A stretch of DNA of 64,000 bases from Clostridiales bacterium (GTDB lineage: Bacteria > Bacillota > Clostridia > Lachnospirales > Lachnospiraceae): positions 1-64,000 of the forward strand of contig JAQXNU010000135.1 of assembly GCA_029098165.1 (NCBI GenBank), read 5' to 3'. The notes beneath the pieces were generated by a model. That model was given only the letters and a program-made list of their open reading frames with translations. It was not told where the DNA came from and did not search any database. The position numbers and the translations under genes are program-made. Every line of letters starts with the position of its first letter. Within the stretch, counting starts at the first letter, position 1. Of this stretch, positions 36,965-43,580 are shown piece by piece.

Positions 36965-37821
36965 AACGAGTAACAAGAATATTTCTTGGAATAGCTTGTG
37001 CTAGTATCGGAATCGGATTATTGCTAGCGATCATAGGATTTGTACTCGGTGGCAAGATCGTTTCTCATGGCGAAAATACTTACGATTATTCTTATAAAGT
37101 TGAGAATATTAAATCGATTGACCTTGATGTTGAATACGGATATGTTAAAATACTGAAAGGGGATGAATTTACAGCAGAAGTTGAGAATGTTGTAGAAAAT
37201 GGTTTTCAGGGATATGTAGAAGGTGATACATGGCATTTAAAACAGAATGGAAAAATCACGGATACTTTAAATATTTTTGGACTGAATATTCCATTTAGTT
37301 TTGGATGGTTTGGTCATCATGATAGCGATTATCCTAAGATTACGATTACTGTCCCAGAAGATTTTATCGCAGAAGAGTTTGAGATTGAATTGGGCGCCGG
37401 TGAAATTAAGGTAGAAGAAATGGATACCAAGGTTGCAGAAGTCAGCATTGGTGCCGGAAAAATGGATGTCAGAAATATGAACGTTACTGATGAGATTTCC
37501 TGTGATGTTGGTGCTGGAGAATTGATCATCAGAGAACTCGATACGAAGAAAGCGAAATTCGAGTGTGGTGTTGGCAGTATCAAAGTAGATGGCAAGGTGG
37601 CAGGTGATTTGGATGCGGATTGTGGAATGGGTGAAATGGATATCATTCTAAATGGCAACGAAGAAGAGTACAATTACAATGTCAGCTGTGGTGTTGGTAA
37701 CATTAATTTAAATGGCCACAATTACTCATTCTCTTCCAATAACCGAATTAAGAATGAAAGTTCCATTGGTACGATTGATTTAGATTGTAGTGTTGGTTCT
37801 TTAAAATTGAGATTTAAATAA
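36961..37821 (+). CDS. DUF4097-family putative adhesin-like beta-repeat protein
   Basis: Repeating beta pattern 'FEIELGAGEIKVEEMDTKVAEVSIGAGKMDVRNM'; ATGA overlap with upstream gene. Confidence 0.85.
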   Translation: MKRVTRIFLGIACASIGIGLLLAIIGFVLGGKIVSHGENTYDYSYKVENIKSIDLDVEYGYVKILKGDEFTAEVENVVENGFQGYVEGDTWHLKQNGKITDTLNIFGLNIPFSFGWFGHHDSDYPKITITVPEDFIAEEFEIELGAGEIKVEEMDTKVAEVSIGAGKMDVRNMNVTDEISCDVGAGELIIRELDTKKAKFECGVGSIKVDGKVAGDLDADCGMGEMDIILNGNEEEYNYNVSCGVGNINLNGHNYSFSSNNRIKNESSIGTIDLDCSVGSLKLRFK

Positions 37822-38068: not shown

Positions 38069-38229
38069 AAAGGGGCTGCGAAAAAACAGCAAGGAAATAA
38101 TCATGAGAGTCGGGAAATCGTATTAGAATTTGGCTGCCTTTCACTTTCGACCGGACTAAGCCAAATTATAATATGATTTCTCGACTCTCTCCTCATTATT
38201 CTTTTTGTTGTTTTTTCACAGCCCCTTTT
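38069..38229 (+). repeat. Long-hairpin repeat, copy LR4
   Basis: aaaggggctgcgaaaaaacagcaa ... ttgttgttttttcacagccccttt; core ttagaatttggct/agccaaattataa. Confidence 0.93.
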
Positions 38230-41867: not shown

Positions 41868-42027
41868 AGGAACGTAGGAGAATAAATGAATGAGTTTAAA
41901 ATCTACTCATGAGAATAACCTTTAATAACATATAATACAAAATAGACATTGACAAATCAACTAACTCGCGTTATAGTAATTAATAAATTTTGGAACATCA
42001 TGAAAGAATTAGAAAGGAGAAATAACA

Positions 42028-42078
42028 ATGATTCAATTTTCATCCCATCGTCATCAGCATCACAAGAAGCAATTGTAG
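42028..42078 (+). CDS. His-rich leader peptide MIQFSSHRHQHHKKQL (candidate his attenuator leader)
   Basis: ATG with aaaggag RBS; 4 His codons in 6; followed by alternative stems and a terminator before hisD. Confidence 0.85.
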   Translation: MIQFSSHRHQHHKKQL

Positions 42079-42206
42079 CTTATGAGTAAGTCATAGGTGC
42101 AATTGCTTGTTGTGGTTGTGCCTATGATGGTGGGAGGAATAGGAAGTTGCTATATCTACATTTCTATTTAAAGACCATTTAGGCATAACCTAAATGGTCT
42201 TTTTTG
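42067..42206 (+). promoter_or_regulatory. Transcription attenuator region with mutually exclusive stems and terminator, upstream of hisD
   Basis: A 42067-42085, B 42091-42108, C 42119-42131, perfect 12-bp terminator stem agaccatttagg/cctaaatggtct at 42172-42200 plus T-tract. Confidence 0.8.
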
Positions 42207-42257
42207 TGGTTTGGAAAAGATTAAGAACTTAAAATCAAAATTAGGGAGGATAGTTTT

Positions 42258-43580
42258 ATGATAACAATTAGTAAGTTTTCAAAAGATAATGAACGATATC
42301 AGGCACTGCTGGATCGAGAACAGGAAATTCCTGCAAAGATAATGGAAACTGTAGATTTAATATTAGCAGATGTAAAAGAAAATGGCGATTACGCAGTGAA
42401 AAAATATATGAAACAGATCGATAATGCCAATCTTGATGAAATCGGCTGGAAAGTAACGAAAGAAGAGTTTGAAGAAGCTAAGAATAACATCGATCCAGAG
42501 TTGGCAAAAGCAATCAGGGAGGCCTGTGATAATATATATGCCTATCACAAAAATCAGCTTCCAAAAGAATACACGCAGAATTATGACTGGGGCACACAGT
42601 TAACTCGTAAATATGTGCCATTATCTAGAATTGCGGTTACAGTCCCAGGTAATATTTCAGCTCTTGTCTCTACACTTTATATGAGCGTTATCCCAGCAAA
42701 AGTTGCAGGTGTACCAGATATCAATATCATGACAAAACCAAAGAACGGTAAGATCGATGCGAATCTTCTTTACGCAGCCGATTATCTAGGCGTCAATAAT
42801 GTGTATAAAATTTGTGGAGTACAGGGAATTGCGGCATTTGCGTATGGAACAGAGATAATTGAACGAGTGGATGCCATTGTTGGACCAGGCAATAATTACA
42901 CTCAGATGGCAAAAAAACGACTATTCGGTACTGTGCGTATTGATTCCATTGCAGGTCCATCTGAAATTGTGATCATAGCGGATCAAACAGCCAATCCAAG
43001 ATTCGTAGCAGCCGATCTATTATCGCAGGCAGAACACGGCACTGGCTTTGAAGCTTCTACAGCACTAGTTTTTAGTGAAGAACAGGCACTAGCAATTCAG
43101 TCGGAACTAGAAACCCTAGTAGCAGAAAACAATTTAACAATTGTTCAGAAAGCACTAAACGCTTATGGTAATATTTTTATTGTATCCTCCATGCAGGAAG
43201 CAATTGATATTGCTAATAATATTGCCCCAGAACACGTAGAATTAATGACCCAAAATCCAGAAACCATCGCCGACAAAATAACAAAAGCAGGCACAATCTT
43301 TATTGGTTCCTATAGCCCAGAACCAGTTGGTGATTACTACTGTGGCACGAATCACATCCTACCAACCTGTGGAACCGCCCGATTCTCTTCAGGCCTAAGT
43401 GTCAACGATTTCATGCGAGGCTATAGTGTCATTAACTACGCCAAAGAATCTCTCCACAGAAATTCCACTTCCATTGAACGCCTAGCAACCTCGGAACACA
43501 TGACTGCACACGCCCTCTCCATCCGCGTCCGCTCCGACTACACCAAACAGACCTTACCCCAACATACATTAAAGAAGTAA
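42258..43580 (+). CDS. hisD: Histidinol dehydrogenase
   Basis: 'VGPGNNYTQMAKKRLFGTVRIDSIAGPSEIVIIAD', 'LLSQAEHGTG', 'GTNHILPTCGTARFSSGLSVNDF'. Confidence 0.95.
   Translation: MITISKFSKDNERYQALLDREQEIPAKIMETVDLILADVKENGDYAVKKYMKQIDNANLDEIGWKVTKEEFEEAKNNIDPELAKAIREACDNIYAYHKNQLPKEYTQNYDWGTQLTRKYVPLSRIAVTVPGNISALVSTLYMSVIPAKVAGVPDINIMTKPKNGKIDANLLYAADYLGVNNVYKICGVQGIAAFAYGTEIIERVDAIVGPGNNYTQMAKKRLFGTVRIDSIAGPSEIVIIADQTANPRFVAADLLSQAEHGTGFEASTALVFSEEQALAIQSELETLVAENNLTIVQKALNAYGNIFIVSSMQEAIDIANNIAPEHVELMTQNPETIADKITKAGTIFIGSYSPEPVGDYYCGTNHILPTCGTARFSSGLSVNDFMRGYSVINYAKESLHRNSTSIERLATSEHMTAHALSIRVRSDYTKQTLPQHTLKK

Follow-up and report, generated by a model that had tools for sequence, protein, structure and literature searches.

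A putative ribosome-mediated attenuator before a second hisD gene has its core in common with leaders of other Lachnospiraceae genes

The leader of a second histidinol dehydrogenase gene (hisD2) in a Lachnospiraceae bacterium is very probably a ribosome-mediated transcription attenuator, belonging to a small family in Lachnospiraceae with a shared core of three RNA arms, A, B and C. The gene lies within a stretch of 64,000 nucleotides (hereafter the window; positions 1 to 64,000 of contig JAQXNU010000135.1, assembly GCA_029098165.1). With somewhat less confidence, we favor a modular family in which one A/B/C core has spread between unrelated Lachnospiraceae genes, its specificity having been reset by codon exchange.

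Results

Anatomy of the hisD2 leader

A promoter-like site, TTGACA-17-TATAGT (41949-41977, plus strand), matches the consensus at 11 of 12 positions, and its location places the inferred transcription start near 41984. Downstream, a ribosome-binding site that can be read directly (AAAGGAG, 42013-42019) precedes by 8 nt the ATG of a leader ORF (MIQFSSHRHQHHKKQL, 42028-42078), which has 16 codons and His at codons 7, 9, 11, and 12. The stop codon of this ORF lies inside arm A (42067-42085), the partner of which is arm B (42091-42108). Arm B can pair instead with arm C (42116-42136, with 42119-42131 as its central part), joining 42092-42102 to 42116-42126, where the sequence of C is TTGTGCCTATG. 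Arm C has three alternative partners in constrained folds, depending on the position of the ribosome. An intrinsic terminator (42170-42202) of 14 pairs and a T run was the one hit of a terminator scan in which 0.1 was expected, and C pairs with its 5′ arm (42174-42185) when the antiterminator forms. All of these arms and signals are on the plus strand and present in the sequence, and the preliminary description of this region had placed the leader ORF, ribosome-binding site, stems, and terminator correctly. Taken together, there is a translatable ORF with a cluster of His codons, hisD2 downstream of it, and an intrinsic terminator between the two, with stems that are mutually exclusive by computation.

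The gene that follows (42258-43580, plus strand) scores 454.6 bits against TIGR00069 (cut-off 243.8), and among solved structures its product is closest to histidinol dehydrogenases. HisD2 keeps the zinc and catalytic residues, with the roles that these have in E. coli HisD. By family score and key residues, the protein is a predicted HisD. An identification as sulfopropanediol dehydrogenase was rejected, as the scores for it fall under those for histidinol dehydrogenases.

Compared with shuffled sequences, the leader folds with z = -11, or -9.3 if the terminator is left out. His-rich ORFs of this kind are rare. In 85 kb of the organism's own sequence, 113 short ORFs are preceded by a ribosome-binding site, and of these the window leader alone has at least three His in six codons. 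The 317 kb around 80 other his operons contain 1747 ORFs of this type, none of which reaches four His in six codons.

Ribosome position and the choice of hairpins

The transcript was folded with a ribosome footprint moved codon by codon, before and after the 3′ terminator arm exists. On a ribosome-free transcript, the fold contains the A:B stem, a duplex of the His-codon region and C, and the terminator. A ribosome on the stop codon covers A, and the fold then contains B:C together with the terminator. When the A site is at about codons 6-10 (the range depends on the footprint, and includes the His codons 7 and 9), A:B is present and C stays paired to the 5′ terminator arm, even at equilibrium; only in this range was stable antitermination of the window leader computed. 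For His codons 11 and 12, this pairing of C is limited to the stage at which the 3′ arm does not yet exist. Constrained folding therefore gives the logic that had been proposed at the outset, both for a ribosome stalled at the early His codons, where A:B frees C to antiterminate, and for one at the UAG, where covering of A leads to B:C and the terminator.

A long hairpin alone yields a good z-score, as would be the case if the ORF and stems were accidental and a long inverted repeat folded well without regulating anything. We regard such an accident as very improbable. When the ORF and terminator were held fixed and the region between them was shuffled with its dinucleotides preserved, none of 400 shuffles showed the full ribosome-dependent switch and three showed a partial one; the His codons lie among those at which a stalled ribosome frees C; and the core recurs before hisG and an aspartate-tRNA(Asn) ligase gene with matching codons. 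By the fold score, the rarity of His-rich ORFs, and the shuffles, the arrangement exceeds chance.

Equally, a T-box or a proteobacterial-type His leader might be thought to control the hisD2 region, as both control his genes elsewhere (PMC9413887). The window has no Rfam match at gathering score, and we consider this explanation close to impossible. Searches at E up to 10 gave no match of the leader to the T-box (RF00230) or to the His leader (RF00514) with which a comparison had been suggested beforehand. The leader does not match RF01743 either.

In the mechanism that we propose, RNA polymerase would start near the inferred site and a ribosome would translate the leader. With ample charged His-tRNA, the ribosome would reach the UAG and cover arm A, B:C would form, the terminator would fold, and transcription would end before hisD2. 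If His-tRNA were scarce, the ribosome would stall on the first His codons, A:B would form, and the free C would pair with the 5′ terminator arm, such that hisD2 would be transcribed. An untranslated leader is predicted to be off by default, because its His-codon region itself pairs with C. This switching is modeled by folding, and the leader is predicted to respond to histidine in the cell.

The same core in two other genera

A BLAST search of the leader against 214 genomes of the family gave one further match, at locus L153, with 85% identity over 41 nt of A and B; its E value is 2.6e-5 for one genome, or about 0.006 on sequence alone once multiplied by the 214 genomes. Locus L153 (positions 129-450; G165:C193) has an Asp3 leader ORF (MYILLLTQLKGDDDR) that ends directly upstream of the three arms, and a gene for an aspartate-tRNA(Asn) ligase comes next. 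In folding, a ribosome on the Asp codons leaves A and B paired and C available to the terminator arm, and a ribosome at the stop codon gives B:C; switching as in the window leader is seen before the 3′ terminator arm is made. The identity between the window and L153 exceeds what pairing needs (TTGTAGC.TATGAG, TCATAGGTGCAAT).

A covariance model built from these two cores picked out a third locus, L024 (G096:C20; E 0.011 in 604 kb), at about 3720-3560 on its minus strand. It includes a His5 leader ORF (MFCIFNHHHHHGITRL), the core, and a terminator, followed by hisG and, further on, hisD. The leader has five His codons starting at codon 7, and its switching logic in folding is the same as that of the window leader. 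The two His leaders have in common their length of 16 codons, the position of the first His codon, and a stop codon inside arm A, and a scan of all collected loci for His-rich ORFs returned only these two. Folding of both L153 and L024 lets the terminator win at equilibrium, and for this reason antitermination there would be kinetic.

The window, L153, and L024 have only standard pairs at the 15 A:B and 11 B:C positions. In the three-way alignment, one and two pairs, respectively, are changed on both sides, and control structures slid along the alignment keep 24-53% of cells. Covariation was equally high in 94 of 500 and 325 of 500 column shuffles, and is thus not significant with three sequences. 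A lack of conservation in relatives was to refute the preliminary description, and the A:B/B:C core, intact in two other genera, speaks against such a refutation. The leader is absent at the hisD2 orthologs.

It is possible, though in our judgment unlikely, that the window leader is a true His attenuator that arose alone in this species, with its core resembling those of L153 and L024 by convergence or chance. The core is short, the hisD2 orthologs and nearly all other his operons are without the leader, and an independent origin is assumed for many leader attenuators, as PMC2965389 argues for Firmicutes. A separate origin is harder to reconcile with an identity to L153 beyond the needs of pairing, or with L024, which was found by the model of the other two cores and not selected for its leader, yet has one. 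The agreement of the window and L024 in leader length, first His codon, and stop codon position also counts against it. We infer instead common descent of the three cores. In this modular family of three members, His codons would serve hisD2 and hisG and Asp codons the aspartate-tRNA(Asn) ligase gene, with the RNA switch unchanged. The core recurs before other genes, once with Asp codons, and therefore looks like a reusable switch with a trigger set by the codons.

Further searches covered his regions, the organism's own genome, and mobile elements. No His leaders were found before the hisZ-first operons of 29 relatives, nor around the his genes of 80 additional genomes, where some stretches were short or ended at a contig edge; at most one of about 110 further his operon regions has the leader. 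There was no leader or core at the weak BLAST matches inspected in the rest of the genome, and plasmid and phage collections contained no relevant match.

A weak match of the core model at position 37028 of the window was rejected, as it lies inside a coding region. Elsewhere in the window, a long imperfect inverted repeat (aaaggggctg...cagcccctttt, 38069-38228) lies between two genes, upstream of an arginyl-tRNA-ligase-like gene, and may be a small mobile repeat.

Other his genes of the genome and HisR

The hisD gene of the window was initially described as stand-alone. This is correct as to its position, but the genome has another hisD as well, in a separate hisZ-G-D-B-A operon on contigs C226 and C108, which makes hisD2 the second copy. 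The other his loci of the genome had been named as a point of comparison, and no attenuator was seen in front of this operon. A putative HisR-like site, CACGTTACTACACTAAAGCA, similar to the published HisR operator, lies about 87 bases before the start of hisZ (L062). Its match of 11 of 14 positions is weak alone, and we accept the site because it is similar to those of relatives (CACGTTAATACGCTAAAGTG and CACGTTAATACAATAAAGTG; relatives L114 and L133 share its form). A HisR-family gene is found on contig C69 (146.7 bits, cut-off 42.2). Part of the his operon occurs in two nearly identical copies on these short contigs (C226 and C108; L062 and L063), which suggests either that strains are mixed in the assembly or that this part is duplicated.

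Given this gene and the HisR-like site that the main his operon shares with relatives, HisR, a TrpR-type repressor, might also control hisD2, in which case the hairpins would merely terminate an upstream transcript. We find this hardly plausible: no HisR-like site was found by motif before hisD2, the terminator follows a promoter and a leader ORF that belong to hisD2 itself, and the three arms would be left unexplained. The preliminary description had named T-boxes as the frequent regulators of clostridial his genes; according to PMC9413887, HisR sites are the more common control of these genes in Clostridia.

A different element at hisD2 orthologs

About 26 Lachnospiraceae genes (56-64% identical) group with hisD2 in a separate branch. 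Congeners yielded only the ordinary hisD, and no hisD2 was found in most of the sampled order and class, in which no closer relative exceeds 57% identity. None of the orthologous genes has a His leader. Instead, 24 of the 26 have a conserved element of about 70 nt directly after the promoter, composed of a small hairpin, a nearly invariant linker (TGATCCACG), and a terminator, the 5′ arm and loop of which (TGTTAGGGAAAAT) are conserved beyond the needs of pairing.

A model of this element also matches upstream of genes for YitT membrane proteins, with two congeners among the genomes concerned, and of one guanine-deaminase-like amidohydrolase gene. Lachnospiraceae loci with the element, before one or another of these genes or hisD2, include L005 (1399-1470), L034 (4788-4859), L037 (4759-4830), and L085-L094 (about 1501-1570). 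Those matches outside the family that were inspected look like unrelated terminators. The element has no Rfam match, and it could be a riboswitch or a protein-bound attenuator of a kind not yet described. GA-cis RNA (RF02987) was rejected as its identity, as GA-cis adjoins the element in L091; there, it scores 41.8 bits at 1421-1502 on the minus strand, directly after the element and before yitT. T-box leaders also occur near two of the relatives' loci (L037, 497-720; L093, 2608-2875). Because most orthologs carry another terminator element, hisD2 seems to be generally an attenuated gene, with the sensor swapped in this species.

Discussion

The mechanism put forward in the preliminary description is supported by the anatomy of the leader, by folding, and by the presence of the core in two further genera, and its function in the cell is predicted. 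That description also singled out attenuation here as worthy of attention. Such attenuators had already been predicted in Firmicutes: in Bacillus, for hisZ and hisS* (PMC2965389), and in the B. cereus group, Peptostreptococcaceae with Lutispora, and Erysipelotrichales (PMC9413887). They resemble the window leader in lying before histidine genes of Gram-positive organisms and in combining a short His-rich leader ORF with attenuator, antiterminator, and terminator hairpins. Their targets are the main his operon or hisS/hisZ, whereas the window leader precedes a second hisD. In addition, PMC9413887 sought His attenuators only where HisR and T-boxes are absent, whereas the genome studied here has a HisR-family gene. 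The HisR-regulated his operons of Clostridia treated in the same source belong to the same pathway, with a DNA-binding repressor there and an RNA here.

The E. coli-type His leader (RF00514) is similar in its His codons, its mutually exclusive stems, and a default off state when translation is absent. The E. coli his leader has seven consecutive His codons, in contrast to the four spread His codons of the window leader. The leu/phe leader of Lactococcus (RF01743) is one leader family used with Leu or Phe and is, to our knowledge, the nearest known precedent for one leader family serving different amino acids; it differs from the window leader in genera, amino acids, and genes. This leader is listed in PMC2864571.

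A shared core with exchanged codons is not described in the available text of PMC2965389 or PMC9413887, and an attenuator family with exchanged regulatory codons is apparently undescribed. What would be new here is one modular core that carries either His or Asp codons, in three members. These can be used as a search model for further members.

A HisR-carrying bacterium would also have a separate RNA-based histidine sensor on its second hisD, a gene where most orthologs have a quite different element. Leader-peptide attenuators are usually viewed as arising per operon and sharing little sequence. If true, a core found in three genera with two amino acids would mean that such switches can be moved between genes and re-aimed by codon exchange.
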